DNA from: Vibrio vulnificus NBRC 15645 = ATCC 27562
GTDB taxonomy: Bacteria > Pseudomonadota > Gammaproteobacteria > Enterobacterales > Vibrionaceae
Reading direction: 5' to 3'
DNA: 64,000 bases
NCBI RefSeq assembly: GCF_002224265.1
Contig: NZ_CP012882.1
Location: 1,488,001-1,552,000 of the forward strand
Shown: positions 4,508-53,421 of the stretch, piece by piece
Layout of the letters: the number at the start of each line of letters is the position of its first letter
Numbering within the stretch: the stretch's first letter is position 1
Notes under the pieces: generated by a model
Told to the model about the DNA's origin: nothing
The model's input: the letters and a program-made list of their open reading frames with translations, nothing else
The model's database searches: none
Translations under genes and position numbers: made by a program

Positions 4508-6490
4508 TTAGTGACGAAATTCCCATGAAAGCATCGCGAAGAAGCCATTATAATCTTCTTCAACGCGCCCCATATTGGCCGTTTCCGCATCGAACAGATA
4601 ATCCGCCTCATTGAAGTCTTCAAAACGCAAGTTCAATATCACACTTTGGTTTTCCGCCACGCGATAATCGCCTATAAGTTCGAGGCGATGCACCACCGAG
4701 TCTACATCTGGATAATGATACCCAGCTCCTGTGGTGTTAGTTTGTCCACGACCATGGTTGTAGCTATAGTCCAACGACAAGCTGAGTTTTTTTTCTAACA
4801 AGTTCTGCCGTTTAAAACCAAATCCCACTGTGGTCACACTGTCTTTTGTCTCTGTTTCGTAGCGATTCCAACCCGGCGCAGCGCTGTTGGCATGCTGCTG
4901 TTCAAAGCGAATAAATTGTTGATTGAAAAAGAGATGTCCTGTGGTGTCGTCTTCAAGATAAAAGCTGACGCCGAGATCATAACCGTAATCCTGCCCTTCG
5001 CTGCGACCGATATCCGGTTGCGGATAGCGCTCATTAGCCAACCAAGCAATAACGGTAAATTGTGCGTTATCGGCAAGATCGTGACTGGCATCGCCACGCA
5101 GCTCCAAACGCTCACGATCTGCGAGGTAAAATTGACGTAGATGAGGCGCATCAGAAGAGGTTTGCGTCCATTTGGAACCATCACGAGTTTGATACGAGAG
5201 TTTTCCGCCCATTCGCCAATCGGCTTCAGGGCGATACACGCTACCTAGATAGAAGGTATGCTCATTGGTTTCTTCACGCACTGCGTATTGGCGCTTGTCT
5301 GCCCGATACTCATAACCCGCATTCAAGCGTAACGAGCGAGAATAACGATGACCCAGCTTCGCATCAAACTTGATTGCATTCCTATCGTATTCTTTACGTG
5401 TCTGACCAATCACCACTTGGCGATCGGAGCGATCATCGCGATCACGATAATCTAACCCTAGCTTCAGCGAGGTAGAACGACTCAAACGATTGTAATAGTT
5501 CGCATCGATCTGAATCGTATCCACTCGCCCGTGGAAACTATCCGTTGTGACCGGCGACTGAGGAAATGGGTTCATGCCCCCCTCTGAGGTCGCACGTGAC
5601 AAAAGCAGGCGTCCGTTAAGACTTTGCGCTTCTAGCTGGTAATTGCCAGAAAGTGACAATTGATGGAAATCGTTTTCCGGCTCGTACGCCAGTTGATTGG
5701 CATACGGATTCGTTTGCTCTCCGTAGTAAAGAGCACTGTATTTCTGACGAAAGAAAGCGCCTTGATAAGAAATGTCCGCATTCCACGCCTCTTCAATGTA
5801 GCTAATCCCCGCAGCGGTATTCAGTGTTTCATAGTCCACCACCTTCGGAAGATATCCCGGTACATTGCCATAGGCAGGTATTGAGGAGGTATAAGCCGTC
5901 ACTGTGCCTTTTTTTCTTTCATGTTGAACGGCGACATGCGGTTTCCAAGGAGAATGTGGCGTGAGCGCAAGCGAGAGATTCAGTGTTTCTCTTTTCACAC
6001 CTTTCTCAAAAGTGGCCAACTCACCCGCCGTCTGCACGTTATTTTCTCCACTGTAGGTGCTGAGTAATGCCTTATTCCAATAGTATGGCGATTCTCGATA
6101 CCGCCCTTGGAAACGTAGGCCATCATACTGGCCCACATCGAGTTGCATTAAAAACCGTTTTAGTCCTAGATCTTCAATTTTCAGCTTGCTGTAAAAACCA
6201 TCATCGTCGTATCTCGATAGATCGGTGTTGAAGCTGCTACCCACGCCGTTTCCGGGATCATTGGAACTCCAAATTGGTGGAACCCAGTTATTAAACCGAG
6301 ATGCGCCGTCGTTGTTTTGGTATCCCAACCCAAAACTGATTTCCCCAATCCACTTGCCGTCACTTTCACAGGGTTTACAACTCCAGCGACTGGTGTCTGC
6401 TTCACTCGCCTGTTGTAAAGCGTAGTCATCAGCAAGAGCGGGAATGGCGAGAGCGGCAACAATGGCGGCCCACAAAGGTGATACGTTCAT
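4508..6490 (-). CDS. mtrB: MtrB/PioB-type outer-membrane beta-barrel (decaheme sheath)
   Basis: 660 residues with a signal peptide ending near PALADD, then alternating polar and aromatic beta strands to a C-terminal ending in EFRH, typical of an outer-membrane barrel. The mature N-terminus carries a CxxC pair (Cys38 and Cys41, CKPC), a hallmark of Shewanella MtrB. Family role: the barrel holds the decaheme MtrA inside the outer membrane so that electrons pass to MtrC outside. Start ATG at 6490 with AGGGAGG upstream; only 10 bases separate it from the mtrA stop. Last gene of mtrC-mtrA-mtrB. DmsF of the extracellular DMSO system is a close alternative, but no dmsAB genes are present. Confidence 0.9.
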   Translation of the reverse strand: MNVSPLWAAIVAALAIPALADDYALQQASEADTSRWSCKPCESDGKWIGEISFGLGYQNNDGASRFNNWVPPIWSSNDPGNGVGSSFNTDLSRYDDDGFYSKLKIEDLGLKRFLMQLDVGQYDGLRFQGRYRESPYYWNKALLSTYSGENNVQTAGELATFEKGVKRETLNLSLALTPHSPWKPHVAVQHERKKGTVTAYTSSIPAYGNVPGYLPKVVDYETLNTAAGISYIEEAWNADISYQGAFFRQKYSALYYGEQTNPYANQLAYEPENDFHQLSLSGNYQLEAQSLNGRLLLSRATSEGGMNPFPQSPVTTDSFHGRVDTIQIDANYYNRLSRSTSLKLGLDYRDRDDRSDRQVVIGQTRKEYDRNAIKFDAKLGHRYSRSLRLNAGYEYRADKRQYAVREETNEHTFYLGSVYRPEADWRMGGKLSYQTRDGSKWTQTSSDAPHLRQFYLADRERLELRGDASHDLADNAQFTVIAWLANERYPQPDIGRSEGQDYGYDLGVSFYLEDDTTGHLFFNQQFIRFEQQHANSAAPGWNRYETETKDSVTTVGFGFKRQNLLEKKLSLSLDYSYNHGRGQTNTTGAGYHYPDVDSVVHRLELIGDYRVAENQSVILNLRFEDFNEADYLFDAETANMGRVEEDYNGFFAMLSWEFRH

Positions 6491-6500
6491 GACACCCTCC

Positions 6501-7472
6501 CTAGTTTCTTAATGACATGCCGCGCGGATGATTGGTTCCGTGCACTTGATTGTGGCAGTTCAAGCAACTGCCTCCCCTCACCTTTAGATCATTTTCCGGT
6601 ATCTCAACATTCGCGTGCGGCACGCTATGGCAATCCTGACAAAGTTGCGGAAGCCGTTTAATCAATAACGCCTGATTGACCGACCCGTGTGGATTGTGGC
6701 AGTTAGAACAGTCTTCTGTAACGGGCTCATGTTCCCATAAGAATGGGCCACGTTTTTCTGAGTGACAATCCAAACAGGTTTCATTGGTGGTGGTTTGCTT
6801 CAAGCTGTATTCATTAACGGTTTGATGGGGATCATGACAACTCGAACACGCCAGAGAACCGTTGAGAATCGGATGGCTACTGCGTTTATGCAGATCAGAT
6901 TTTGTTTTTGCATGGCAGTTAGTGCAGGTTTCCACTTGTTTTTCGGCCACCATCATAGGATCGTCTTTCTCGTGCAACTTATGGCAACTCGAACAAGAGA
7001 GATCCTCAAAAGCATGTTCGCTGCTGTGCCACGCAGAGCGACTCGAGTCGGTATGACAAGACAAGCACACACTGTTTTGCTTTTCTGACGGCACTGGAGA
7101 CATGGGGCCAAAGGTAATCATGGGTTCACGCATTTCACCTTTACGAGGATTACGTTCATGATTGTTGGCTGGGCCATGGCACGCTTCACACTGTTTGTCG
7201 CTCATTGGCCCATGAACATTGGCCGACTTACCATGGATATTGTCGAAAATTCCCGTTGCGGGTAACTCAGAATCGTCATCATGGCAGCGTAAACAGCCAT
7301 CAGGGCCACGTCGTGAATACTTTCCGTCACTAAACTTCTGATCCAATATTGCTTCAATCGCTTCACGAGAATCGACCACTGGCTGCGTAGAGCGCTCTTC
7401 TGCACTCAAATTTGAAGAGAGACCAAGCGCCATCACTATCGTCACGAACCACCACTGAATCGTTGTTTTCAT
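6501..7472 (-). CDS. mtrA: Periplasmic decaheme cytochrome c, MtrA/DmsE family
   Basis: 323 residues with a Sec signal peptide and exactly ten CxxCH heme-binding motifs (CLRCH, CEACH, CLSCH, CSSCH, CTNCH, CSSCH, CLDCH, CSNCH, CQDCH, CLNCH), spread along the whole chain as in Shewanella MtrA (about 333 residues). Family role: a heme wire that threads the MtrB barrel and takes electrons from periplasmic or inner-membrane cytochromes. RBS AGGAAA before ATG 7472. It follows mtrC by 53 bases and precedes mtrB by 10, so it is in one operon. Neighbouring mtrC and the absence of a DMSO reductase favour MtrA over DmsE. Confidence 0.93.
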   Translation of the reverse strand: MKTTIQWWFVTIVMALGLSSNLSAEERSTQPVVDSREAIEAILDQKFSDGKYSRRGPDGCLRCHDDDSELPATGIFDNIHGKSANVHGPMSDKQCEACHGPANNHERNPRKGEMREPMITFGPMSPVPSEKQNSVCLSCHTDSSRSAWHSSEHAFEDLSCSSCHKLHEKDDPMMVAEKQVETCTNCHAKTKSDLHKRSSHPILNGSLACSSCHDPHQTVNEYSLKQTTTNETCLDCHSEKRGPFLWEHEPVTEDCSNCHNPHGSVNQALLIKRLPQLCQDCHSVPHANVEIPENDLKVRGGSCLNCHNQVHGTNHPRGMSLRN

Positions 7473-7525
7473 AAGATTTTCCTATTGCTCAACCGTGCTC
7501 CGGAAGTCTCTCCCGAAGCACTCAG

Positions 7526-9730
7526 TTAACGGTATTCGTACACTTTATGGACTTTATCTACGCCTTGCTCCTGACCGATGGCGTGACACGTTGCGCACTG
7601 TTCTTTGCCCGTTGCTTCCACAGCGGTATCCGCAGCAAACACGGCCCCGTTTTTGATCATATGATCGAGCACGGCATCACCAGGAATCGTATCAGGATCG
7701 GCATTAGCCAAAGGCGATTCAATATGACAGGCACCACACGCCACTAATGCGGGGCTGAAGTATTTTCCACTGGCCAACGAAGGTCGTGTATTTTTCTGGC
7801 TTGGTAAGTTGTATTGCCCAGCACTATGGCACGCTTCGCAGTTGTTAATTGCGCCAGGGAAGACGGATTCACCTACATGCGCAGAGCCGAAGGCATGGAA
7901 TGAGTGAACATGATATTTGAGATCCGCGGCCATGCCTGCGTAGTACGCGGAGCGCTCTGAATTGTGGCAATTTTTACACTGTTGCAAATCCGTTGCTGCG
8001 TGTGGATGAGCGCCCAATTTGTGAATGGTGAGCTCTTTGTGACAATTGTTGCAAGACGTTACCTCTGCACCAACAGGCAAGGTATGCGGCGTTGTGATAC
8101 CGCCCACATCAAACGTTCCTTTTGCGTTCTTAGCAGCAATCACATAAGGGTATTTCAAATTATCAATGCCAGTGAATGTCGAACAATCCGCCAACTCACC
8201 TGTTGTTCGGTTGGCACACAACGGCATATCAGCCACATTCACGGTCAACGTGGACGTTGCAGTTGGCAAAAGCGTCGCGCCAGTGAAATCTTTCTGGCAA
8301 GTGAACAAGCCATTGCCTTGTGCGGTACAGGTAGAGAGATCCAAACCGTTATTTGCCAGCATTGGGCCTTCACCGTTATCCCAATTGAGCAACAAGTTGA
8401 CATGACCATGTTCATTGATAAATGGCGTGATTTCACTAAGCGCGCTAATACCAACGCCATCTTTCTGAATAATGACATCAACTTCAAACATGGAATCCAC
8501 AAAACGAGCCTGCTTAATACTGACAAGCAACGTATCCCGTGCTGCCGCTAACTTATCCAAACGGCCTAGATGCACTGTGCGAGCGCTTCGGCTGGCATCC
8601 ATACCAATAATTGGGTCACCGTTCTCATCGCGCTCATAAGGGCGATGGCAACCTGTGCAGGTTTCTCTATCCCAGGTAAAACCGACTTCATTGTCGTGTG
8701 CACCTCTGTCTCTGTACAAATGACAAGACTCACAAGCCACTTGGCTAGGATGTTCAAACCAGTTGTTCGCATCTGACGCTTTTGTCACATCCTGCGAGTG
8801 GCAAGTCGTACAGTTACGCGCGTCTTGTGGAAATGGATTGCCTTCCATCACCAATCCATTGATCTCCGTAACCAACGCGCCATTGCTATCGACTGGCTGT
8901 TTGTAGGTTGTCGGATCGCTTGAACTTGAGCCAAGGGCATACACATTTCCGTGATACTGATGCACGATGGCGGCCAGTGGGCGACGACGTGGGGCGGCAC
9001 CAGGATTACTGTCATTGTGGCAGGACGAACAAACTGCGATGTTGTTATCAATGGAGCGATACCCAGGGCCATGATGCAGTGGTTCACCCATGTGACAGTT
9101 AGAACAAGTCTCTTCTTCAATGACGTTGCGAGAAACCGTTTGATCGGATGGTGTTCCAGGAATCCACTGGTACACATAGGTAAATCCTAGCTCTTGGTCA
9201 CCATACGCCATCACAATACGATGCAACTTGTCTTCATCCCAAGCGATCATGCCTCCGTTATTTACCGAGTCAGTTGGGTAAGGATCGGCAACATTCAGAA
9301 TATCTGCAATTGCAAAGGTATAAGTGTAGCCGCTCTCTGTTTTGAGCAACTCACCACCCGCTGTCCAAACATTTTCCATGCTCGCTCGATTGGTTGCGTC
9401 ATTACTAGAATGGTGGAAGCTCTTCCAAAACGTGTTGCCATCTCGCCCACCGCCGCTTCTTTGAGGCATTGCTTTAAGCACCGCGATACGAAAATCTTTC
9501 GTTGCATCGAACTCATAGGCGCGGCCTGATGCATCAAAGACTTCAAAATCAACCACAAGCTTGGTTTCACTGGCCCCATCAGGTACCACGAGTTGAGGGG
9601 TTGCCACTCTGACCGTAAAGTCTTTCCCAAGCTGGGGAGGCGGCGTATTTTGATCGTTACCACTTTCTGGTCCACAAGCAATCAGTAGAATACTGAGTAC
9701 AGAGGCCAACATCGCTCTTAATATAATCAT
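7526..9730 (-). CDS. mtrC: Outer-membrane decaheme lipoprotein cytochrome, OmcA/MtrC family
   Basis: I start at ATG 9728-9730, because this gives a lipoprotein signal peptide with lipobox LLIAC (Cys19); the longer open frame up to 9967 lacks coding character. The 734-residue protein has ten CxxCH motifs in two groups of five (about residues 207-356 and 557-710), separated and preceded by beta-rich segments. This is the four-domain plan of MtrC/MtrF/OmcA. Family role: terminal surface reductase passing electrons to metal oxides, flavins, humics or electrodes. It is the first gene of the mtrCAB operon; AAGGGA lies about 10 bases before the start. Confidence 0.93.
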   Translation of the reverse strand: MIILRAMLASVLSILLIACGPESGNDQNTPPPQLGKDFTVRVATPQLVVPDGASETKLVVDFEVFDASGRAYEFDATKDFRIAVLKAMPQRSGGGRDGNTFWKSFHHSSNDATNRASMENVWTAGGELLKTESGYTYTFAIADILNVADPYPTDSVNNGGMIAWDEDKLHRIVMAYGDQELGFTYVYQWIPGTPSDQTVSRNVIEEETCSNCHMGEPLHHGPGYRSIDNNIAVCSSCHNDSNPGAAPRRRPLAAIVHQYHGNVYALGSSSSDPTTYKQPVDSNGALVTEINGLVMEGNPFPQDARNCTTCHSQDVTKASDANNWFEHPSQVACESCHLYRDRGAHDNEVGFTWDRETCTGCHRPYERDENGDPIIGMDASRSARTVHLGRLDKLAAARDTLLVSIKQARFVDSMFEVDVIIQKDGVGISALSEITPFINEHGHVNLLLNWDNGEGPMLANNGLDLSTCTAQGNGLFTCQKDFTGATLLPTATSTLTVNVADMPLCANRTTGELADCSTFTGIDNLKYPYVIAAKNAKGTFDVGGITTPHTLPVGAEVTSCNNCHKELTIHKLGAHPHAATDLQQCKNCHNSERSAYYAGMAADLKYHVHSFHAFGSAHVGESVFPGAINNCEACHSAGQYNLPSQKNTRPSLASGKYFSPALVACGACHIESPLANADPDTIPGDAVLDHMIKNGAVFAADTAVEATGKEQCATCHAIGQEQGVDKVHKVYEYR

Positions 9731-10426
9731 AGGATTATCCCTTATTCCTATTAATCTTCTGTATGTTGGAGTTATCGCTTTATACTTTACGTAATTGTAG
9801 TGGATTTTTACCAGATGTCTCGCCAAGACAACCTGTCGTGATAAGCTCATCAAAAGAAAATAAACAGTGAAAATAAACTTACTATTAATTATATTCTCTA
9901 GAACAAACGAATTGGCATTGTTATATTTATCAATTACTTTCCCACTATCAAACAAGACGTTTAACATGTCCTGAATAATATCTTTTCACTTTGAGACATA
10001 GAGCATGCATTTGAATTTGAAATATTAGAGAATTAAACTACAAATTAAAAAGGCAACAAAATCAATGCCATAAGAAAAAACAGGCGGTTGATAAATGATA
10101 TAAAGACTCATTTAACCCATGCGTCTTTTCTATTTCCATAGAAATAGAATTAAGAAAAATCGACATCTAATTGATTTAGATCATCTATTCCATCGTCATA
10201 AATTAGATATTAACGAGGTTAAACCAAGCTAAACACAAAATACCTCACCCATGCATAAATGGCTCAATCATCAATCCAAATGAATCACAAATTAAATTCC
10301 TTAGCACAACAAATAAAAATATCAAAGAGATCGAGCAAATTTTAAATAATGTATTACTATCAAATTAGAAAGCCAACTAACTTTAGAAAGTATCACTGCA
10401 CTATTTAATTATAGGAACGTCACGCT
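9731..10426. other. AT-rich divergent regulatory region of the electron-transfer locus
   Basis: About 700 bases, very AT-rich, between the divergent mtrCAB and diheme/tetraheme cytochrome operons. I see no convincing gene in it. It contains the FNR-like site at 10171-10184 and presumably both promoters, which I cannot place confidently. Confidence 0.6.
10171..10184. promoter_or_regulatory. Candidate FNR-binding site
   Basis: TTGATTTAGATCAT matches the FNR consensus TTGAT-N4-ATCAA in 9 of 10 defined positions. It lies about 245 bases before the diheme cytochrome gene and 545 bases before the mtrC start codon. Anaerobic activation of this locus would suit its function. The distance to either start codon implies long leaders or an additional nearer site. 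Confidence 0.55.
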
Positions 10427-11050
10427 ATGCTTGATAAAAAATCTACTTTAAACAACATCTTCTGTACCATTGCTCTGTTTATCGCTTCATTTGGTTCGGC
10501 TTTCGCTAGCACGCAAGCCCTCGTTAGCGAGAAACAATGCGATGCATGCCATGGAGCAAATGGTGTGAGTGGGCACACTGATATACCCACCATTGCGGGC
10601 ATTCCTGAGTTCAATCTCAGCGACCAAATGCTACGCTACTTAGAAGGACGCCCCGCCAAAACCGTCCAACACGTGTCGGGAGATATCAGTCAATCCGGAG
10701 ACATGGCAACCATCGTTCGTTCTTTAACAGAAGACGAAATTGAACAACTCGCAGCCTACTACGCTGACATGGAGTTTGTTCGCGCAAAACAACCTTTTGA
10801 TCAAACACTGGTAAACCAAGGTAAAGCCATTCATCTAAAAAGTTGCGAAAGTTGTCATGCCGATGGAGGAAGCGATCCTCTTGATGAAGCTTCCATTTTA
10901 GCAGGCCAACAAAAAGGCTATTTGTTAACAACCTTAACGCAATTTCATCAAGGCCAACGCTCAGCAGACAAGAAAATGGATAAAGCGATTAAAGCATTAT
11001 CTCAAGAAGAGCGACAAGCACTTGTTGAATATTATGCAAGCTTCCAATAA
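10427..11050 (+). CDS. pdsA: Periplasmic diheme cytochrome c (PdsA-like)
   Basis: 207 residues: signal peptide ending near SAFAS, then two class I cytochrome c domains with CDACH (about residue 38) and CESCH (about residue 141), a cytochrome c4-like tandem. RBS AGGAA before ATG 10427. It is followed after 26 bases by the tetraheme CymA-like gene. In Vibrio natriegens a periplasmic diheme cytochrome named PdsA carries electrons from CymA to MtrA; the same neighbours here suggest the same job. The PdsA name rests on context and domain plan, not on an alignment. Confidence 0.75.
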   Translation: MLDKKSTLNNIFCTIALFIASFGSAFASTQALVSEKQCDACHGANGVSGHTDIPTIAGIPEFNLSDQMLRYLEGRPAKTVQHVSGDISQSGDMATIVRSLTEDEIEQLAAYYADMEFVRAKQPFDQTLVNQGKAIHLKSCESCHADGGSDPLDEASILAGQQKGYLLTTLTQFHQGQRSADKKMDKAIKALSQEERQALVEYYASFQ

Positions 11051-11076
11051 ATACGTTTATATCAGGGAGTCGTCTT

Positions 11077-11634
11077 ATGAGCCTATGGGATAAACCTCGC
11101 AGCAAATGGTGGTTAGGCGTTCCACTTGGAGGCGTTGTGGCTGTTGTTATTGGTGCCATAGCCATGACCGGCTTTCATTGGGGTATGACGTTCACCAACA
11201 GCAATGCGTTTTGTTTTGGCTGCCATATTGGGATGGATACAATTGTTGAAGAATACCAAGAGTCCGTTCATTTCAAGAACGCTAAAGGTGTGATTGCGGC
11301 AACGTGCAGTGATTGCCATGTCCCTCGCGAATTGCTGCCTAAGCTCAAGTTAAAAATCATGGCGACTGCGGATATCTTTCACAAGTTGTCGGGCGACATC
11401 ACTCTGGACAACTTTGAGACTGAGCATCGACCTAGACTGTTTGAAAAAGTCACCAACGAATTTGTGGCAAACAAATCACAGCAGTGCCGCTATTGCCATC
11501 GTGTTGAGTTGATGGATTTCACTGCGCAAGATCGAACGGTCGCTCGTCGGCATCAAACCATGGAGGAAAGAGAGAAATCGTGTATCGACTGTCATGCGGG
11601 AATCGCGCACAAACTGCCACAACAATCTGAATAA
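11077..11634 (+). CDS. cymA: Tetraheme NapC/NirT-family quinol dehydrogenase, CymA-like
   Basis: 185 residues with one N-terminal membrane anchor (about 12-36), a short periplasmic tetraheme domain and four heme motifs: CFGCH, CSDCH, CRYCH, CIDCH. Size and plan match Shewanella CymA, which oxidises menaquinol and feeds periplasmic and outer-membrane reductases. RBS AGGGAG. It is second in a two-gene operon with the diheme cytochrome. NapC and TorC-like paralogues are alternatives, but there are no nap or torA genes here and mtrCAB is adjacent. Confidence 0.88.
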   Translation: MSLWDKPRSKWWLGVPLGGVVAVVIGAIAMTGFHWGMTFTNSNAFCFGCHIGMDTIVEEYQESVHFKNAKGVIAATCSDCHVPRELLPKLKLKIMATADIFHKLSGDITLDNFETEHRPRLFEKVTNEFVANKSQQCRYCHRVELMDFTAQDRTVARRHQTMEEREKSCIDCHAGIAHKLPQQSE

Positions 11635-11951: not shown

Positions 11952-13763
11952 TTACAGTACTCTGACAACTCGGAATCCTGCAAAGTTTGCTGCAGAATCA
12001 GGAGAAATAAATAACTGAGATTCCGCTTTTGCTTTTTCAGGAGAGAAGCTCCAAGCACCGCCTTTTAATAAGCCTTTGCTGTCTGCGGTCCACTCCCAGA
12101 CGTTACCAACCACATCATAGAGGCCAAAGCCATTGGCACTAAATGATTTCACTGGAGAAGTGCTGTTATTTGACCAAGGAGTTCCGCCCCATCCTGTATT
12201 AGCTTGGCCCGAACCAAACTTCTCGCCCCACCAATACTCCGCTTCCGAGCCTGCTCTCGCTGCGATCTCCCACTCGTCTTCGGTAGGCAATCGGTAGTGG
12301 TAGCCTGTTTTGTCGGACAGCCAGTTAACGTAGGCGTTTGCGTCATTTTGACTGACACAGACAACCGGAGAGTTTTCTTGCTGACTGAAACCCGGATCAC
12401 GCCAGTATTTGTTGGCTATAGGAGTGATCGCCGCTTGTTCGATACGAGTACAGATTTTGTGTAGTTCAGCATCTGTCTGATAGTTACTTTGGTCAACAAA
12501 AGCACGGAACTGTGCAACCGTAATCGGCGTGGTACTTATCGAAAATCCACGATTCAAGCGAACTTGCTTACCCGCACGCTCACCGACCATATAAGTGCCT
12601 TCTGTCACGACCGCCATTTCCGGTGCTGGTAATGAACCCAAGTTATCCGCAAACGTCTCACCCGTCTTGGCGACATTGCGTTTTGCTACTAGGTTTGCTC
12701 TCAGTGCTTGGTCTTGGCTAACCATCAGATCGGTACGGAAGGTACTGTAGCCTTCTTTCTCAATGCTGATCTGGTGATTGCCCATCGGCAGCATAATCTC
12801 AACGGGTGTGGAGCCGTACTTCACGCCATCAATCAAAACGGTATCACCATATTGATTGGAACGAATGGTCAGCGTATGCCAAGCGGTTTCGGTCACTTTT
12901 TCACCGTCAACGACCTGACTTGGAGAAAAACAGTATTTTGAATCAATGTTCAGCAGCTTACACGGCGCATTTTCAGCCGGTCGCGTGTTTAAAGAAACCT
13001 TGAGAATTTGCGTGTATTGATTCTCACCAGAAAATTCAGCTTTCGACGACTGGTGCTTCAATACATGGATATTAAGAGCCGCTTGCGATTGATTCTGCTT
13101 GGCCAATTTGGCTTCGGTTGTTCCATCGATCAGTTCGTTTTGATACTGACGAACCGCTTTTTGCAGCGCTAAAGTTGTTGTTTGTTTCGCACATTGTTCA
13201 AGTGTCATATCGCTACGACAAGTATTGGTGAACGATACGGTGAGATCCCCTTTCTGGCTGATTTCACTGCGTATGGTCGCAATACGAGCACGTTGACGTT
13301 CTTCTTGAAGCTGTGCAATTTTGCCACGAATCACCGTTTCTTCTGCGTTAATCGCGGCCAATTCGCTTGCGAGTGTTTCATGCGTTTGACGCGCTTCGAG
13401 CTGCTCGCTTTGATTCTGCTTGACCTTAGACCAAGCGGACTGATAGGCACTCTGAGCGGGCATCAAATCAAAATCAGGCGTATCACTTAAACGTTGATAA
13501 TCTTTCTCAAGCTGTTGCTTCGCCTTATCGAGTCGCGCAACAAGTTCAGCCTCTTGTTGTTTCAATCGCTCAAGCTGCTCTGCTTGGTTATTCAACTGAT
13601 TCTGTTTAGCCGATTTCTTCTTTTCCGTATCGCTAAGCAACGTGTTTTGGGTGAACAAAGCGTCATCAACAACCACCACAGGGCTTGCTTCTTCCGCCAT
13701 CGCAGGAATTCCAGCAACAACAGGCAGCATGGCAAGTGTAAGTGCAGAAAAAACTAAACGCAT
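11952..13763 (-). CDS. Periplasmic coiled-coil / PEGA / FGE-like (SUMF) protein
   Basis: Start ATG 13761-13763 gives a clean signal peptide (MRLVFSALT... AMA|EE); 603 residues. Order: a Gln/Glu/Lys-rich coiled coil (about 40-180), a middle domain, a PEGA domain (about 298-335, with YGSTPVEIMLPMGNHQ) and a C-terminal formylglycine-generating-enzyme-like domain (about 380-603, with GNVWEWT and GFRVVRVL). The cysteine pair used by true FGE in the segment after the GGxW motif is not visible here (GGAWSFSPEKAKAESQL), so sulfatase activation is unlikely; a structural or sensing role is more plausible. The N-terminal two-thirds is paralogous to the next gene upstream. Function unknown. Confidence 0.8.
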   Translation of the reverse strand: MRLVFSALTLAMLPVVAGIPAMAEEASPVVVVDDALFTQNTLLSDTEKKKSAKQNQLNNQAEQLERLKQQEAELVARLDKAKQQLEKDYQRLSDTPDFDLMPAQSAYQSAWSKVKQNQSEQLEARQTHETLASELAAINAEETVIRGKIAQLQEERQRARIATIRSEISQKGDLTVSFTNTCRSDMTLEQCAKQTTTLALQKAVRQYQNELIDGTTEAKLAKQNQSQAALNIHVLKHQSSKAEFSGENQYTQILKVSLNTRPAENAPCKLLNIDSKYCFSPSQVVDGEKVTETAWHTLTIRSNQYGDTVLIDGVKYGSTPVEIMLPMGNHQISIEKEGYSTFRTDLMVSQDQALRANLVAKRNVAKTGETFADNLGSLPAPEMAVVTEGTYMVGERAGKQVRLNRGFSISTTPITVAQFRAFVDQSNYQTDAELHKICTRIEQAAITPIANKYWRDPGFSQQENSPVVCVSQNDANAYVNWLSDKTGYHYRLPTEDEWEIAARAGSEAEYWWGEKFGSGQANTGWGGTPWSNNSTSPVKSFSANGFGLYDVVGNVWEWTADSKGLLKGGAWSFSPEKAKAESQLFISPDSAANFAGFRVVRVL

Positions 13764-13841
13764 GATAAATACTTCATTAAAACTTAGGGAACATGCCAAA
13801 TTATCGAAAAATGGCGTTTAAATAAAAATGCGAAAGCAGGG

Positions 13842-14939
13842 TTACCCCTGCTTATCTTCAACCAACTTGACCCAAACGGTATCGGTCGAACCGACATAAA
13901 TCTCACGATTATACGTTTCATAGCCCGGTTTCGACACCGTAAAACGATGCTTGCCTTTAGGCAAGAGCAATTCGACTGGCGTACTTCCGTAGCTAACACC
14001 GTTGATCGTCACCGCATCATTGTACTGATCCGATCTTACCGTTACTGTGACCCAATCTTTTTTCTCTTGCTTTGATGAGTTACTGCTTGCTGATAAACAG
14101 TAGCGGCTTGATACAGAAAGTAGTTTACATGCTGCCGTTGCTTCTGGTTTCGCTTGAAGCTGAGCTTGAATACTCGTGCTATACGCACCATTGCCTGAGA
14201 AGCCACTTTCAATCGTTTGACTCTCTTGAACGTGGATGTTTAACTGAACACCTTGCAAGTTTTGCTTCGCCAACACCGATTCCGTCAAGCCTGACAAAAG
14301 TTTATCTTTAAAAGTGTTTACGGCTTTTTGCTTGGTGAGGTATTTGCCTTGGCTAATACACTCTCCAATCGTCATCGTTGATGAACAAGTCGTCGTGTAA
14401 CGTGTTTCTAGTACCGCGCTTTCGCGAAGTTCTGCTTCCAAACGTTTTACACGCGCTTCAACGTGAGACTCTTGTAAGTTCGTGTATTCACTGTTTAAGC
14501 GTGCCAGCTTCTGTTTTAGCTGAGATAAACGAGATTCGCTTTCTACGATACTTTGATCACTCTTGAGCTTTTCGTTTTGATTCTGTTTCAGCGCTTCCCA
14601 AGACTCTTGGTATTTTTTCTGAAAAGAAACAAGGTCAGTATCTGGATCTTCCAGTAAACGAGCATACTGCTTATCAAGAGCAGATTTCGCTCGGTTACGT
14701 TTCGCTTCCAGCTCTTCAGCTTCTCGCTGCAAACGAGCGTTGTCGCCTTTCAATCCTTTCAGTTGACTGCTTTCTTCGCTGTATTGCTCTTCTACTGCTT
14801 TGATCTCTTGTTGTTTTGCATCGATTTTTTCATCAACGGCGGCAACTGGATCGGCCTGATTCACCTCTTCTGCCAACACAGAAGATGCCCATGGAAAACT
14901 TAGCGCAAGCAAAAGCGCTGGGATTGGACGTATGTTCAT
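13842..14939 (-). CDS. Periplasmic coiled-coil / PEGA-domain protein
   Basis: 365 residues from ATG 14937-14939; signal peptide ending near SSVLAEE. A long coiled coil (about 35-200, KxxE/QxxL-rich) is followed by a conserved middle domain and a C-terminal PEGA domain (about 305-345, YGSTPVELLLPKGKHRF). It resembles the neighbouring FGE-like protein over its whole length but lacks the FGE domain, so the pair arose by duplication with domain gain or loss. PEGA domains are usually extracytoplasmic and thought to bind ligands or envelope structures. 78 bases separate the two genes; likely one operon read from 14939. Confidence 0.8.
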   Translation of the reverse strand: MNIRPIPALLLALSFPWASSVLAEEVNQADPVAAVDEKIDAKQQEIKAVEEQYSEESSQLKGLKGDNARLQREAEELEAKRNRAKSALDKQYARLLEDPDTDLVSFQKKYQESWEALKQNQNEKLKSDQSIVESESRLSQLKQKLARLNSEYTNLQESHVEARVKRLEAELRESAVLETRYTTTCSSTMTIGECISQGKYLTKQKAVNTFKDKLLSGLTESVLAKQNLQGVQLNIHVQESQTIESGFSGNGAYSTSIQAQLQAKPEATAACKLLSVSSRYCLSASSNSSKQEKKDWVTVTVRSDQYNDAVTINGVSYGSTPVELLLPKGKHRFTVSKPGYETYNREIYVGSTDTVWVKLVEDKQG

Positions 14940-15548
14940 AGTTCCCTGCTCAAATAACGTTACATTCTGTACGTGCAAAACGAGATAAGCATCTCGTTAA
15001 TCTAAACAAACCTTCCTTCTAGTACCGCGACAAATCCGTACTTGAGAAGAAGCTCAAGAGCTCTGCTAATTATTAGAAACGATCTCCTGAAAAATCATTG
15101 TATATCAATCCTGTTGAGAATATTGTTTTCAAAGTCTAAACCAAATCACACTTTTGAGCTAATTACATAATTTTATCGCTCAATTTTACTCCTGCTGACA
15201 GTAATGGCATCAAGAAACAACCAGTTACATTACGAAAACTATTGAATAACCGAGCATCGTTTGCTGTTCAAAAAGTCAGCATTATTAGCAAAAACTGTGT
15301 TTTCAATTGAAACCACACCAATATCTCTCTATAGAACATTTAACACAAAACGCCTAGTGAGATAGCTCAACAAGTTGAAAGCGTGAGCTAATCAAAAAAA
15401 CCTATCCACCATCTCAGCCTTAAGCCATGCTCAACTAGAGGGCAATCACAATCTTGGTTTTGCATGGTGTTTTATTATTGAAACCGCTATTCTTCTGTAC
15501 CTTCTACCCAAATAACGTCGATATCTTCAACTTGTCGCGCGGCGAATC

Positions 15549-15766: not shown

Positions 15767-18121
15767 ATGAAATTTAGAACATTTCTAATACTAGCAGTAG
15801 TCACACTTTTTGCAGGTTGTGCCACCTATACTGGGCTCAACTATGACCAACTGTTTGGCGAGGCCGAAGTCCGTGACCGGACCGAGCACATTCAATCGGC
15901 TCAAAGTGCGTTTTTTATGCACGATGTCAAACCCATCATCGAAAACCGATGTGTGGTTTGTCACGCTTGCTACGACGCGCCATGTCAACTCAAGCTCTCT
16001 TCCGTAGAAGGTATTGACCGCGGCGCAAGCAAGACGCTCGTTTATCAAGGGACTCGTCTTACAGCCACGGCACCTACTCGCTTGTTTGAAGATGCGCAAA
16101 CCACGCAAGAGTGGCGTGATGCAGGCTTTCATCCTGTGCTCAATGAGCGTGCCCAAACTGGTGTTGCCAACATTGATGCTGGCTTGATTGCGCGATTGCT
16201 GCAACAAAAGGAGCGTCATCCCCTTCCTCAACAGGACCAGCTTGAAGGATTTGATTTTTCGATTGATCGCGAACAGACCTGTCCGACGATTGAAGAATTT
16301 GATCAGTACGAGCGGACCAACCCAAGCTGGGGAATGCCCTTTGGTATGCCCAACCTTTCGGCCAAAGAACACCAAACGCTCATGGCTTGGCTGGAAAATG
16401 GCGCGATCATGAACGATCACATTCCGCTCACACGTGATCAGGCGGCGGAGATCACGCGATACGAGCAAATGTTCAATAAGAGTTCGCGTAAAAACCAGCT
16501 TGCCGCACGTTATATCTACGAGCATCTTTTTTTATCGCACCTCTATTTCTCTGAGTTAGAGGGGGAACCTCGCTTCTTTACTATGGTTCGTTCGTCCACC
16601 CCACCAGGCGAACCCATACAGCGCATTGTCACTCGTCGCCCCTATGATGATCCGGGTGTAGAACGTGTTTACTACCGAATCATTCCCGAGCAAGGCACGA
16701 TTGTCGATAAGACACACATGCCTTTCGCTCTGAATAGCCAGCGAATGAAGGATTGGAAAGCGTGGTTTATTGACGCAGATTACGTCGTCGAGCAGTTGCC
16801 AAGTTACGATCCTGAGATTGCGGCCAACCCAATGAGTGCTTTTATTGACCTCCCAGTGAAAGCACGCTTTAAGTTCATGCTAGATAACGCACAAAACACC
16901 ATTATGGCTTACATAAAGGGGCCAGTGTGTCGCGGGCAATTGGCGCTGAATGTGATTAACGATCGTTTCTGGGTTTTCTTCCTCGATCCTGACAAAGCGG
17001 ATATTCCGGAGGTTAACGAGTTTTATCGCTCACAAGCCGATAATCTAAAACTACCGGGCGAACTTGAAAGTAATACCCTACCAGTCACCAATTGGGTCAA
17101 ATATTCGACACAACAAGCTCGCTATTTAGAAGCAAAATCGGAGTTTATTAACCATTGGTTTAAAAATGGTACGCATCTCAACACCGACATCATATGGGAT
17201 GGTAATGGCACTAACCCCAATGCCGCATTAACGGTGTTCCGTCACTTTGATAGTGCCTCTGTGGTACAGGGATTGGTGGGTGAGAAGCCCAAAACGGCCT
17301 GGGTTCTCGACTACGCTTTGCTAGAACGCATCCACTACTTGTTAGTGGCGGGTTTTGATGTGTATGGCAACTTTGGTCATCAATTAATCACTCGCATGTT
17401 TATGGATTTTCTTCGTTTAGAAGGTGAAAGTAATTTCATCGCCTTGTTGCCCGCAGATATGCGCCATCAAGAGCAATCCAGCTGGTATCAACAGCAAAAC
17501 CGCCAACTGAGCGATTTCTTGCAGCGCAATGTGGCGCCCTTTAGCCAACCAACTAGCGTTGTATATAAAACCGATGATCCTAAGTCCGAGCTGTTTGACA
17601 TATTACGCCGTCAAGTGAGCCCAATCCTGAATGCACGCTATGAGATTGTCGATACTGGCATGAGCGTGAAAAACGAAGCATTGCTGAAGTCATTGAATTT
17701 GGTAAAAGGTGAAAAACTGTTGCCTATCCCGCAAATTACCATGTTGATGGTCAAAGCAGATACTGGGAAAGAGCAGCTTTATACACTGCTTCATAACAAT
17801 GCACATTTGAACATCTCAAGTTTGTTTAATGAAGAGAAAAATCGTGACCCAGCGAACGACAGTCTCACCATAGTGCGTGGCGTTGTCGGGAGCTACCCTG
17901 CGGCATTCTTCTTGTTAAACGAAAACCAAGTGGCTGAGTTCGTCCAAATCATTACTGCAATGAAATCTGAGCAAGACTACGTTAAGTTATTGGATAAATT
18001 TGCGATTCGTCGTAGCTCAACCAATTTCTGGTCGTTTAGCGACAAAGTTCATACTTGGTATCGCAACGATCAACCTATCGAATTTGGATTGCTTGACTAT
18101 AATCGTTTTGAGAACCGATAG
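15767..18121 (+). CDS. cti: Fatty acid cis/trans isomerase (cytochrome c-type)
   Basis: 784 residues, the normal Cti length. A lipoprotein-like signal peptide (LFAGC) is followed by the Cti heme-binding segment RCVVCHACYDAPCQLKL near residue 62. Family role: a periplasmic heme enzyme that converts cis-unsaturated acyl chains of membrane phospholipids to trans without shifting the double bond, quickly stiffening the membrane under solvent, heat or osmotic stress. It is followed after 26 bases by a small gene with a strong RBS, probably co-transcribed. Confidence 0.93.
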   Translation: MKFRTFLILAVVTLFAGCATYTGLNYDQLFGEAEVRDRTEHIQSAQSAFFMHDVKPIIENRCVVCHACYDAPCQLKLSSVEGIDRGASKTLVYQGTRLTATAPTRLFEDAQTTQEWRDAGFHPVLNERAQTGVANIDAGLIARLLQQKERHPLPQQDQLEGFDFSIDREQTCPTIEEFDQYERTNPSWGMPFGMPNLSAKEHQTLMAWLENGAIMNDHIPLTRDQAAEITRYEQMFNKSSRKNQLAARYIYEHLFLSHLYFSELEGEPRFFTMVRSSTPPGEPIQRIVTRRPYDDPGVERVYYRIIPEQGTIVDKTHMPFALNSQRMKDWKAWFIDADYVVEQLPSYDPEIAANPMSAFIDLPVKARFKFMLDNAQNTIMAYIKGPVCRGQLALNVINDRFWVFFLDPDKADIPEVNEFYRSQADNLKLPGELESNTLPVTNWVKYSTQQARYLEAKSEFINHWFKNGTHLNTDIIWDGNGTNPNAALTVFRHFDSASVVQGLVGEKPKTAWVLDYALLERIHYLLVAGFDVYGNFGHQLITRMFMDFLRLEGESNFIALLPADMRHQEQSSWYQQQNRQLSDFLQRNVAPFSQPTSVVYKTDDPKSELFDILRRQVSPILNARYEIVDTGMSVKNEALLKSLNLVKGEKLLPIPQITMLMVKADTGKEQLYTLLHNNAHLNISSLFNEEKNRDPANDSLTIVRGVVGSYPAAFFLLNENQVAEFVQIITAMKSEQDYVKLLDKFAIRRSSTNFWSFSDKVHTWYRNDQPIEFGLLDYNRFENR

Positions 18122-18412: not shown

Positions 18413-21325
18413 CTATTGAACCAAGTTCTTCAGTGCGTGATAACTTAGCTCAACGCACTCTTCCAACGCTTCTTTTTCGTTGAGATAGAGGCTGATTGGT
18501 GAAGAGTGGGTTTCAATTGTTTTGCACAGCGTCATTAACTTATTTAGACCCAAACTGCCTGCACTGCCCTTAAGTTTGTGGGCTAGCCCTTTAACTTGCG
18601 CTTCATTCGCTTCATTGGCAGCGCTCACTAAGGCTTGAAGAATTTCATCGCTGCTGCTTTTGAACAGTTCGATGATTTGTCGCATTTTGTCAGCACCAAG
18701 CACCTCCATATCGGAAAGCACCACTTGAGGATCCATCAGATTGCTATTCTGAGATTGAGCAATGCTTGAGCAAACGTCACCGCTCGTTGCCGTGTCTTGA
18801 CTTTCTACGCACACCAGTACTTTTCCTTCTAACATTTTTTGAATCAGCGCTGAAAGCGCTTCTTTTTCCAGTGGTTTTGCAAGGAAACCGTCAAATCCTG
18901 AGGCTAAATAGCTCTCCACTTCCTCATTAAATACGTGAGCAGAAACCGCAACCATAGGTGTTTTTCTCTCACTTGATTGCTCTTGCTGCTTTAAACGTTG
19001 GATCAAATCCGTTCCATTACAATCAGGCAGATTGATATCAACTAACGCAATATCAAATGACTGCTGCTCAAACAACATTTGTGCTTCTGCACCATCTTCC
19101 GCCATTACCACGGTATGACCCAAGCTACTGAGAAACCCTTCCGCAACAATACGGTTCACAGCGTTGTCTTCAACCAATAGGATCGTCGCTTGTCGGTTTT
19201 CAGTTTCGAGCGGACAAACAACGGGCTCAACGGCATCGCAAGGCGTCAAAGGCACGGTGAACCAAAAACGACTGCCTTCTCCCTCTTCCGACGTCATTTC
19301 CATCTGCCCACCCATGGCTTGAATGATGCGGCGACTGATCGCCAAACCCAACCCTGTACCACCCGCGGCTTTTTGCCCACCACTGGCTTGGGTAAAGGCA
19401 TCAAAAAGGGTCGCCTGCTCTTGTTGAGCAATGCCGATACCAGTGTCAGTGACTTCAAACTGCACCACATTCTCCTGCTCAAGATCGAGGCTAACGTAAA
19501 TATCCACCGCACCTTGATGAGTAAATTTAATCGCATTACCAACAAGATTGTTGAGCACTTGACTGATGCGTGTGACATCGCCACGCCAATAATGGTTAAC
19601 ATCACTCTCGATATGATAGGAGAAGGTCAGCGATTTCTCGGCGGCTCGGCTTTGCATCAGTTGGAAAGTGTCTTCCACCATTTGATGCAACTCGAAGGCG
19701 GATTCTCTAATCTCAAGATGCCCAGCTTCAATTTTGGAGTAATCTAAAACATCGTTCAAAATGGCCAGGAGATTTTTACCACTGCGATTGATGATATCGG
19801 CATAACGCTTTTGCAACGGATTCAGACCGGAGTCCATCAATAAGCGAGCGGTACCCAGTACGCCGTTCATTGGCGTGCGAATTTCATGGCTCATCGTGGC
19901 CAAAAATGCCGATTTCGCTCGGTTTGCTTGTTCTGCTAATGAACGCGCTTTGGCGTGATTGAGCACTTCGTGATTGAGTTTCTCATTGGTCAGTTGTAAC
20001 TGACGCGTGCGCTCAGTTACAAGCTCTTCTAAGTGTTCTTTGTGCTCTTGAAGCTCTTTTTTCGCTTTGGCTTCCCCTTCAGCAACGATTTTCAGTGCTT
20101 GAGCCGTGTTCCTTGCCGTGATGATCGCCTGCCCCATATGCGCCAGCTCGTCATTGCCCCGAACTTGAAGCTCAATATCGAGATTGCCTTGGGCTACTTG
20201 CAACAACGCCGCCGAATATTCCGTTAAACGCGTCACCACAGAAACATAAACCACTCGCCAAACAATCACGATGGCGACGATGAGGCCAGCGAGTGAAATC
20301 ACCGTTAGAATGAGCTGCGCTAAGTTCAGTGTGCGTGTTAGCTCCGACACGGCTTTTGTCGTGGTCTGATTTGAGTCGTCCACAAGCTTATTGACGGTAC
20401 CGTTGAGCTCAGAAAAAAGCGCGAGGTTTTGCTGCATAAGCTTCTGGGATTCTAGGTTATTTTGGTATTGTTGCCCAAGGATGTTAAACACGACTTGGCG
20501 CTTGCCCAACTCAGTAAGTAAGTTGGACATTTGCGCAGAGCGAGTAGGATCTTCCACCGCTTGAACTCGGCGAACCATGATTTTGAGGTTGGCATCAAAC
20601 TCATTACGCACATCATGAATGCGATCAATATTGGAAAGTGTACGTGCTTCTTCGATCTGGTTGAGCATTTTGAATGCGAGCAGATGCAGCTCATGCAATC
20701 GTTCGGAAAGATCAAGGTCAACCTCCACCAAGGCATCAAGCGCTTGGTAAGCTTGAGGAATTTTGTTTGACTCCAATAAGTCATAGATATGTGTCACATT
20801 CGCAACCGCAATGGTGCTGGTATTGAGCACTTGAGTGCGCGTCAGTTGTTCAAGCTCTTCGCTGAGCAGACGCATCTCTTCAACTCGGCTATCAATCTCT
20901 TTTGCTAACCACAGTTTTTTCTCCACTGATACGCCTAAGTCGGCCAAGTTATCAATCACACTTTGCACATGAGTTTCGAGCCGCTCCAACAGTAGCGGAT
21001 CAAACGACTCTCCACCGCCAAGCGCTTTAATATGTGAAAGTAGCGACTCCAACTGAGAAAAAAGTTCTTTCCCTGACTGTTTTCGCTCCACTTCATTTTT
21101 GGCGTTTGATAAGGTTTGGACCGATGCAATAATACGCGAGCTGAGCTCAGAGACTTGTCTTGCTTCAATCATGGCGGGAATAGCCGTATCAACGACATTG
21201 CGCTCTGTTTTTGCCACGAACGAAAAACCCGATACACCAATTAACGCTGATAACATCACCAACATTGCCATGGCGATGAACGAGAGTAACAACTTCCGGC
21301 CGATACTCGCTGTTGCTAATAACAT
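18413..21325 (-). CDS. torS: TorS-type hybrid sensor histidine kinase
   Basis: 970 residues from ATG 21323-21325. Order: membrane helix, a long helical periplasmic sensor (about 45-330), second membrane helix, HAMP, HisKA with MSHEIRTP (about 477), ATPase (GGTGLGLAISRR), receiver (phospho-Asp in LVDINLPDCNG, about 764) and HPt (LAHKLKGSAGSLG, about 914). This is the tripartite TorS plan, and the sensor region follows E. coli TorS (AIPAMIEARQVSE, IYDLLESN). Together with periplasmic TorT it senses TMAO and phosphorylates TorR. torT is divergent next door. torR and torCAD are not in this window. Confidence 0.92.
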   Translation of the reverse strand: MLLATASIGRKLLLSFIAMAMLVMLSALIGVSGFSFVAKTERNVVDTAIPAMIEARQVSELSSRIIASVQTLSNAKNEVERKQSGKELFSQLESLLSHIKALGGGESFDPLLLERLETHVQSVIDNLADLGVSVEKKLWLAKEIDSRVEEMRLLSEELEQLTRTQVLNTSTIAVANVTHIYDLLESNKIPQAYQALDALVEVDLDLSERLHELHLLAFKMLNQIEEARTLSNIDRIHDVRNEFDANLKIMVRRVQAVEDPTRSAQMSNLLTELGKRQVVFNILGQQYQNNLESQKLMQQNLALFSELNGTVNKLVDDSNQTTTKAVSELTRTLNLAQLILTVISLAGLIVAIVIVWRVVYVSVVTRLTEYSAALLQVAQGNLDIELQVRGNDELAHMGQAIITARNTAQALKIVAEGEAKAKKELQEHKEHLEELVTERTRQLQLTNEKLNHEVLNHAKARSLAEQANRAKSAFLATMSHEIRTPMNGVLGTARLLMDSGLNPLQKRYADIINRSGKNLLAILNDVLDYSKIEAGHLEIRESAFELHQMVEDTFQLMQSRAAEKSLTFSYHIESDVNHYWRGDVTRISQVLNNLVGNAIKFTHQGAVDIYVSLDLEQENVVQFEVTDTGIGIAQQEQATLFDAFTQASGGQKAAGGTGLGLAISRRIIQAMGGQMEMTSEEGEGSRFWFTVPLTPCDAVEPVVCPLETENRQATILLVEDNAVNRIVAEGFLSSLGHTVVMAEDGAEAQMLFEQQSFDIALVDINLPDCNGTDLIQRLKQQEQSSERKTPMVAVSAHVFNEEVESYLASGFDGFLAKPLEKEALSALIQKMLEGKVLVCVESQDTATSGDVCSSIAQSQNSNLMDPQVVLSDMEVLGADKMRQIIELFKSSSDEILQALVSAANEANEAQVKGLAHKLKGSAGSLGLNKLMTLCKTIETHSSPISLYLNEKEALEECVELSYHALKNLVQ

Positions 21326-21435
21326 ATTTTTCTTAACCTTACACAACGGCAAACAGCAGATCAGCATTGGTTCGCCGGGGAGAATACGCTATATTCTGCT
21401 ACGTAACTTCCAACGATGCCAATGAACCTTGCTGC

Positions 21436-22449
21436 ATGTTAAAGACTAAGCACACTTTTTCGCACTGTTTGCGCAAAACTTTACCACTTTCCCTTCCAAT
21501 TCTATTTTCTACCCCTGTTTATGCGGCGGAAAAACTCTGTGCGATTTATCCACATTTAAAAGACTCTTACTGGCTTTCTGTCAATTATGGCATGGTGTCT
21601 GAAGCGGAGAAGCAAAAGGTCAATCTACGCGTGTTAGAAGCGGGAGGCTACCCAAACACTGCCAAACAGCAGCAACAACTGATGCTATGCAGCAAATGGG
21701 GGGCGGATGCTATCTTGCTTGGTACCGTCGACCCCATGGCGTTTAACGAAAACTTGCAACAGTGGACAGGCAGTATTCCCGTTTTCGCAACTGTAAACCA
21801 ATTGGAGCTCGATGAAACGCAAAGTAAGAATCTGAAAGGCACCGTCGGCGTGGATTGGTATTGGATGGGTCATCAAGCGGGTCAATACTTGGCACAGAAA
21901 CATCCTGCTGGCTCAGGAACCAAAAATGTCGTGTTATTGTTAGGCCCCAAAAGCAGTGGTGGGACCAAGCCCGTCGATAAAGGCTTTAGAGATGCCATTA
22001 AGGGCAGTGATATCCATATCATGGAGAGTTTCTGGGCGGATAACGACAAAGAGTTACAACGTAACTTAGTACAGCAAGCGATCGACACACCCGATGTTGA
22101 TTATCTCGTTGGCAGTGCGGTGGCAATGGAAGCAGCGATCAGCGAACTACGTAGCGCCAATAAAACAGGCCAGATTGGTTTGATTTCAACTTACCTCAGC
22201 CATGGCATTTATCGTGGCCTATTACGCAATAAAATTGAGTTTGCTCCGACGGACCAAATGGTGCTGCAAGGGCGCTTATCGGTGGATCAAGCGGTCAACT
22301 ATTTACGTCATAAGCCATATCAGATTCACAGCTCACCAACCATTGAGCCTCTAACACCAAACACGCTGAACTTCTCAACTATTGAAGACTCTTTATCGCC
22401 ATCCGAATACAGGCCAATTTTTGACGTCAAAGCAGTTGAATCTCAGTGA
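21436..22449 (+). CDS. torT: TMAO-binding periplasmic protein TorT
   Basis: 337 residues from ATG 21436, giving a signal peptide ending at VYAAEK; an upstream TTG frame from 21367 is less likely. The mature N-terminus (LCAIYPHLKDSYWLSVNYGM, then LEAGGY and CSKWGADAILLG) is unmistakably TorT, a periplasmic-binding-protein fold. It presents TMAO to the periplasmic domain of TorS. It is divergent from torS with a short shared promoter region. Confidence 0.93.
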   Translation: MLKTKHTFSHCLRKTLPLSLPILFSTPVYAAEKLCAIYPHLKDSYWLSVNYGMVSEAEKQKVNLRVLEAGGYPNTAKQQQQLMLCSKWGADAILLGTVDPMAFNENLQQWTGSIPVFATVNQLELDETQSKNLKGTVGVDWYWMGHQAGQYLAQKHPAGSGTKNVVLLLGPKSSGGTKPVDKGFRDAIKGSDIHIMESFWADNDKELQRNLVQQAIDTPDVDYLVGSAVAMEAAISELRSANKTGQIGLISTYLSHGIYRGLLRNKIEFAPTDQMVLQGRLSVDQAVNYLRHKPYQIHSSPTIEPLTPNTLNFSTIEDSLSPSEYRPIFDVKAVESQ

Positions 22450-31227: not shown

Positions 31228-31983
31228 TTAGAAATAGGTACACATACGTTTACCGTCGCGTTCAATGACACTAAACGGGGTTTCGTAGATCTGCTCAAGC
31301 ACCGCTTCTTCAATCACCTCTTCAACACTACCACTGGCGACAATTTGACCTTTTTTCAAAGCAATAATTTGGTCGGAATAACACGCCGCAAAGTTAATGT
31401 CGTGGATCACCACCACCACGGCCTTGTTCATCTCTTTGGCCAATCGACAAATCGTCTGCATGATCTGCTTTGAATGGCGGATATCCAGATTGTTCAGTGG
31501 TTCATCAAGGAAAACATAATCGGTATCTTGGGCTATCACCATGGCAATAAAAGCGAGCTGCCGCTGCCCTCCACTGAGTTCATCGAGATATTTGTCTTGG
31601 ATATCACTGAGATCAAGATACTGAATCGCGCGGTCAATCTGTTGTTGATCTTGTGCCGTCAATCGACCGCCAGAATGAGGAAAACGGCCAAAGGCCACCA
31701 TTTCTCGAACAGTAAATCGCATCGTAATGCTGTTTGCTTGGCGTAAAACAGCCAATTTCTTCGCAAGGACTTTGTTGTCCCACGTTTGAATCTCTTTCCC
31801 TTCGATCAACACCGCCCCGCCATCACGATCAAGCAAACGCGAAGCCATCGACAGCAGTGTACTTTTACCGGCCCCATTCGGCCCAATAATGGAGGTGACA
31901 CTTCCTTTTTCAAATTGACCACTGGCTGCCGACACAACAGCAAACTTGCCAAAATGTTTAGTGAGTTTATCTAGAACAATCAT
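31228..31983 (-). CDS. Iron-siderophore ABC transporter ATPase
   Basis: 251 residues: Walker A GPNGAGKS (about 33-40), signature LSGGQRQ, Walker B DYVFLDEP and the H-loop His. It is closest in character to the FepC/FatE/VctC branch that powers ferric catechol siderophore import. It follows the second permease by 7 bases and is the last gene of the set. Confidence 0.88.
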   Translation of the reverse strand: MIVLDKLTKHFGKFAVVSAASGQFEKGSVTSIIGPNGAGKSTLLSMASRLLDRDGGAVLIEGKEIQTWDNKVLAKKLAVLRQANSITMRFTVREMVAFGRFPHSGGRLTAQDQQQIDRAIQYLDLSDIQDKYLDELSGGQRQLAFIAMVIAQDTDYVFLDEPLNNLDIRHSKQIMQTICRLAKEMNKAVVVVIHDINFAACYSDQIIALKKGQIVASGSVEEVIEEAVLEQIYETPFSVIERDGKRMCTYF

Positions 31984-31990
31984 TGCCTAC

Positions 31991-33869: not shown

Positions 33870-34159
33870 TCTGCCTCCACGAAAGAAGAGCAAAAGGCCC
33901 ATGCTTGTTTGCTTCGACTTGACGATTGATTATCTGGCCCAAAAGCGGCGAAGGAGATGCCAAAGATTGCTGTTTCAGCTACCTCTACCCCGAACTCACG
34001 GTGGGAAGCGGGTATCATTCGGCGATGGGGATCTCTATCCATGTACTTAATACCAATTGAGAAGTGTTATCATGCGCATTCGCAATATACAGATTCACTC
34101 ATGAGTATTCAACTGGTTAAACAAGATGAGGCCGTCGCATTTGAGTTTAAAGCGACAAA
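33870..34159. other. Unassigned stretch before the siderophore permease
   Basis: About 290 bases. A minus-strand frame of 58 codons (MDRDPHRRMIPASHREFG...) ends in a TGA that overlaps the permease GTG as GTGA, but it lacks a convincing RBS and resembles nothing I know. It could be a decayed gene, perhaps where a binding-protein gene once stood, or leader sequence. Confidence 0.35.
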
Positions 34160-43042: not shown

Positions 43043-43043
43043 T

Positions 43044-44324: not shown

Positions 44325-44325
44325 A

Positions 44326-52583: not shown

Positions 52584-52585
52584 TT

Positions 52586-53359: not shown

Positions 53360-53421
53360 TGTTTTGTCTTTTTTATTAAGAGAAAAATGGAGGTTTCCCT
53401 CCATTCTATATTGGGAAGTAA

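Follow-up and report, generated by a model that had tools for sequence, protein, structure and literature searches.

Gene Content and Layout of the Locus

The window, i.e., the whole stretch of 64,000 nucleotides of Vibrio vulnificus NBRC 15645 = ATCC 27562 that was analyzed, lies on the 1.74-Mb contig (C2) of a 5.0-Mb, two-contig genome. Between positions 4508 and 11634 it carries five intact genes in two divergent arms. On the minus strand are mtrB (4508–6490), encoding a 660-aa outer-membrane barrel with an N-terminal CKPC motif, mtrA (6501–7472), encoding a 323-aa periplasmic decaheme cytochrome, and mtrC (7526–9730), encoding a 734-aa decaheme lipoprotein of the outer surface. The plus strand holds pdsA (10427–11050; a 207-aa periplasmic diheme shuttle) and cymA (11077–11634; a 185-aa tetraheme quinol dehydrogenase of the NapC/NirT family). 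The arms are ca. 700 bp apart, with 696 bp (9731–10426) between the divergent starts of mtrC and pdsA. The divergent arrangement of all five genes thus agrees with the original prediction for this DNA. The longest ATG frame of mtrC reaches position 9967 and would encode 813 aa, including an upstream extension before the likely start. Translation probably starts at 9730, which gives a protein of 734 aa with a predicted signal peptide and a lipobox (LIAC); in several relatives the part upstream of the equivalent position contains in-frame stops.

Counting of CXXCH motifs in the translated proteins yielded 10 for MtrA, 10 for MtrC, 2 for PdsA, 4 for CymA and none for MtrB, which has a single CxxC (the CKPC at residue 38). 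In 1000 shuffled-residue controls per protein the mean number of CXXCH motifs was 0.00–0.08 and the maximum was 2, so the heme-site counts are not due to chance. They reproduce the chain of 4 + 2 + 10 + 10 hemes plus a CxxC-bearing barrel that had been proposed. The accompanying description of “five multiheme genes” needs correction: four of the genes encode heme proteins, but the fifth, encoding the MtrB barrel, does not.

Identity of the Encoded Proteins

MtrB matched PF11854 (486 bits) and TIGR03509 (523.5 bits; cut-off 240) as well as chain B of PDB entry 6r2q (E 1.1e-56), while MtrA matched TIGR03508 (322 bits; cut-off 192) and chain A of the same structure (E 2.6e-90). MtrC scored 541.5 bits with TIGR03507 (cut-off 209), and its sequence relatives in the PDB are UndA and MtrF; only the longer frame also matched, weakly, the MtrC of entry 9eov. 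An AlphaFold2 model of MtrC, built without hemes from an 18-row alignment (mean pLDDT 70.6, pTM 0.65), retrieved exclusively UndA, MtrC or OmcA entries, i.e., outer-membrane cytochromes of the Shewanella type, among its 15 PDB matches at E ≤ 0.001. Sequence and model together place MtrC among the decaheme lipoproteins of the OmcA/MtrC family, with their solved fold.

The best NCBIfam match of PdsA was the PdsA model itself (NF049874), with 256 bits under a cut-off of 330. This is in line with other Vibrionaceae, since four of their PdsA proteins scored 237–264 bits; one from Aeromonas reached 386 and one from a Cellvibrionales bin 177. CymA matched PF03264 (186.6 bits) and, under their cut-offs, the TorC and NapC/NirT models of NCBIfam. 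No CymA model matched, and the name is given to this tetraheme NapC/NirT protein because of its place in the published and compared loci; it occupies the same place in all seven Vibrionaceae loci discussed below. The proposed MtrCAB-CymA-PdsA identity is therefore borne out by family models for MtrA, MtrB and MtrC (above cut-off) and PdsA (below cut-off), and by family and position for CymA.

Occurrence in Related Genomes

We fetched 62 MtrA-related loci, seven of which (L021–L027) are from Vibrio, Photobacterium and a Vibrionaceae bin. All seven show the identical divergent order of five genes, with 4, 2, 10 and 10 hemes plus MtrB, and the same layout was found in three further genomes (G038, G213 and G152). 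In the sister genome G038 the five proteins are 96–99 percent identical to those of the window. In three Aeromonas loci (L028, L029 and L031) the place of cymA is taken by a five-heme gene, and the one product tested, that of L028, was identified by model as NetB; a fourth Aeromonas locus (L030) is cut by a contig end. The genes flanking these loci differ from those of the window, and none of the window's flanking genes occurs near the mtr loci of L021–L027 within up to 8 kb in either direction, or 2.6 kb at one end of L027. The CymA-PdsA-MtrCAB set is thus again seen to be kept as a single block while its neighbors vary.

Trees of RpoB, MtrA, MtrB and MtrC were calculated for 11 genomes. They did not include G038 and G079, in which RpoB was not found, G010 and G169, whose frames are split, L025, G173 or three genomes devoid of mtr genes. 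For the window's genome they contain no well-supported conflict that would point to horizontal transfer. The window's locus groups with Vibrio and Photobacterium, with many forks unresolved, and the MtrC of V. hangzhouensis joined Aeromonas, a placement flagged by the tool as a possible long-branch artefact. A near-mode search of a plasmid collection gave no match to the locus. By identity, and apart from the sister genome, MtrA and MtrB are closest to Photobacterium lutimaris (L021; 77 and 56 percent), whereas MtrC is closer to most other Vibrio (65–71 percent in seven) than to P. lutimaris (53 percent). This mismatch in nearest relatives may reflect an exchange of parts of the locus, although the trees do not resolve it.

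An empty insertion site could not be demonstrated, as the genes flanking the locus, dbpA and a pair of coiled-coil PEGA proteins (11952–14978), one of which has an FGE-sulfatase domain, are not adjacent in other genomes. Matches to the FGE-PEGA protein occurred in 66 of 80 genomes, some of them to the FGE domain only, and dbpA was present in 61 of 61. Among the 30 best FGE-PEGA loci, excluding those of the host and G038, the PEGA pair was kept together in 28 of 28 other Vibrio loci, and neither dbpA nor an mtr gene was present in the 1.5-kb flanks of these 28 loci.

A Predicted Route for Electrons to the Cell Surface

We consider it highly probable (roughly nine chances in ten) that the locus encodes a complete extracellular electron transfer pathway of the Vibrio MtrCAB type. 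CymA in the inner membrane would oxidize menaquinol and pass the electrons to the soluble diheme protein PdsA, which would hand them to MtrA sitting inside the MtrB barrel. From there the lipoprotein MtrC would take them outward, reducing ferric iron, electrodes, flavins or other external acceptors. We infer this order and direction of electron flow from homology. Of the maturation and menaquinone pathways, CcmF and MenA were sought in the host genome, and two CcmF/NrfE frames and one MenA were found above cut-off.

This layout has already been described for Vibrio and Photobacterium (PMC8805035, mBio 2022). The same five proteins, likened here by name, form the CymA-PdsA-MtrCAB pathway of V. 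natriegens (Conley et al., 2020, AEM), a system of another species, or at least of another genome. In view of the published description (PMC8805035), the set in the window is not a new hybrid. Adjacent mtrC, mtrA and mtrB, pdsA beside them, CymA (or NetBCD) next to the cluster and a single mtrC are features of Group 2 MtrCAB systems that the window shares, the host genome containing one MtrC match and, hence, no duplicate of mtrC. According to PMC8805035, all Group 2 members have pdsA, and metal reduction by A. hydrophila and V. natriegens requires MtrCAB (with reference to Conley 2018 and 2020). The Aeromonas loci L028, L029 and L031, also of Group 2, differ from the window by their pentaheme protein in place of the tetraheme CymA.

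The Mtr systems of Shewanella belong to the same family and complex type, as indicated by the matches of MtrA and MtrB to 6r2q. The Shewanella copies compared are 48–53 percent (MtrA) and 24–26 percent (MtrB) identical to those of the window; their A-B-C order suggests that they could be MtrD and MtrE. The cymA gene of Shewanella is located elsewhere and FccA/CctA serve as carriers (PMC8805035), in contrast to the window, where cymA and pdsA lie beside mtrCAB.

The pathway may allow the host to grow by mineral respiration; with less confidence, we suggest that its main use would be as an electron sink aiding survival without oxygen, as reported for V. natriegens, rather than as the main mode of growth. 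“Respiration” may, indeed, be too strong a term, because the V. natriegens pathway is said to enhance survival under fermentative conditions (PMC9315368).

It is very improbable that the locus, intact in sequence, is idle in the species and was merely retained after horizontal transfer. Its spread is patchy: of the 227 genomes of the genus, 29 gave at least some match with the barrel model (15 exceeding its low cut-off), and a long match (>370 bits) occurred in 12, host included; MtrC was matched in 11 of 196 genomes, in one with only 18 bits. In addition, mtrC frames are broken in three relatives (G173, G169 and G010), and in G010 mtrA and pdsA are broken too. The interrupted mtrC frames of these genomes are those of loci L013, L014, L017–L020, L212 and L213, and they could represent sequencing error or early decay, the former being possible in G169 and G010 because their listed contamination is 6 and 5. 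Against an idle locus stand the five intact frames of the window and their near-identity with those of the sister genome.

Slightly less probable still is an inward-directed conduit fed by electron donors outside the cell, the direction proposed for the Pio and Mto systems. MtrAB homologues do run that way in Rhodopseudomonas (PMC8805035), but the partners found here, PdsA and CymA, belong to the metal-reducing Group 2 systems, and mtoC and mtoD have been described almost only for Group 4 (PMC8805035). Finally, that MtrA and MtrB are DmsE and DmsF homologues serving an extracellular DMSO reductase, a reading named beforehand as one that would speak against the original prediction, is hardly tenable: although the top curated hit of MtrA, the subfamily model TIGR03508, bears the name “DmsE family” and none specific to MtrA matched, mtrC, pdsA and cymA adjoin mtrAB, the host genome contains one MtrB/PioB barrel match, one decaheme above the MtrA/DmsE-family cut-off and no DmsA above cut-off, and its best DmsA-like frame (360 bits vs 778) lies on the other contig.

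The MtrCAB pathway proposed for the window is ordinary for its bacterial group and a further member of an already described kind; with it, one more Vibrio can be counted among the bacteria that are likely to be electroactive.

Cysteine Pairs of MtrC

The MtrC of the window contains four extra cysteines between hemes 5 and 6 (C468, C478, C505 and C516; spacing 9, 26 and 10), i.e., two pairs, whereas the Shewanella decahemes compared have one pair in this position. We surveyed the cysteine spacing in 29 proteins of at least nine hemes, drawn from the window and from 20 of 25 scanned loci (leaving out L035, L037, L040, L051 and L075). The spacing 9/26/10 was found in 8 of 8 proteins from Vibrionaceae and 9/21/18 in 4 of 4 from Aeromonas. 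All 12 proteins from Shewanella, Marinobacter-labelled and Ferrimonas loci had a single pair, as did that of one Cellvibrionales bin, and four proteins from two other bins had other patterns. All 6 of 6 additional stretches, one of which (L210) repeats L027, also show the Vibrio pattern. Every row of the 18-row alignment has C505 and C516, at the position of the Shewanella pair, and 10 of the 18 rows have C468 and C478; the Shewanella rows are decahemes encoded after an A-B pair, maybe of the MtrF and OmcA/UndA types, and S. oneidensis MtrC is not among them. An order-wide draw, in which 39 of 394 genomes matched, gave for the best 30 loci four such cysteines in 11, two in 15 and none in 4; three of the 11 four-cysteine proteins had already been counted in the earlier survey.

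The single pair of S. oneidensis MtrC is reported to be a redox-active disulfide, which restricts the reduction of flavins when oxygen is present (PMC4486940, PMC9973256). All such cytochromes are reported to carry a CX8-15C motif in domain III (PMC4486940), and a second cysteine pair is not unheard of, since two CX5-8C motifs are present in a subgroup of MtrC (PMC4486940). The main texts of the two papers on the disulfide (PMC4486940 and PMC9973256) do not mention Vibrio, cysteines are not mentioned in PMC8805035, and a literature search by title gave no title pointing to an extra pair in Vibrio MtrC. One could imagine that in Vibrionaceae and Aeromonas, unlike in Shewanella, the two pairs (C468-C478 and C505-C516 in the window, the second being of the kind that acts as an oxygen sensor in S. 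oneidensis MtrC) form a two-stage redox switch tying flavin reduction to oxygen, but we regard this as unlikely. The extra pair poses a small, testable question, namely how the conduits are closed when oxygen is present.

As a signature of Group 2 the extra pair had to be rejected, for it is not exclusive: it was also found in three decahemes of another family (f6) and in one of family f21. In the f6 proteins (L222, L223 and L224; 814–820 aa) the two pairs, likewise located between hemes 5 and 6, are spaced 10/30/9.

Regulatory Sites and Neighboring Genes

The region between mtrC and pdsA contains an FNR-like site at 10171–10184, which is found at the same position only in the sister genome G038 (L006), and no FNR or CRP site is conserved in position beyond that genome among the 15 relatives' regions. 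Allowing at most one mismatch, FNR-like sites were present in the window and also in 3 of these 15 regions (L006, L013 and L030), the ends of which are alignment-derived and rough. Random sequences of like composition carry such a site in 1.5–13 percent of cases; the site is a candidate that we do not count as evidence. A promoter scan gave 8 sites vs 12.3 in shuffled sequences, terminator-like sites numbered 8 vs 7.8 in shuffles, and Rfam gave no match within positions 1–22500 of the window.

Several other genes of the window can be named. A fatty acid cis/trans isomerase (CTI; PF06934, 959 bits), the translation of which has a CXXCH motif, is encoded at 15767–18121. The interval 18413–22449, some 7 kb from the mtr locus, encodes a TMAO sensor kinase of the TorS type (TIGR02956, 1174 bits vs 676.5) and, next to it, a TorT-like periplasmic protein, which was named by eye. 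Two further clusters were likewise named by eye from the list of open reading frames: a siderophore-type ABC transporter at 31228–33902 and a Tad-type pilus cluster at 42476–53404.
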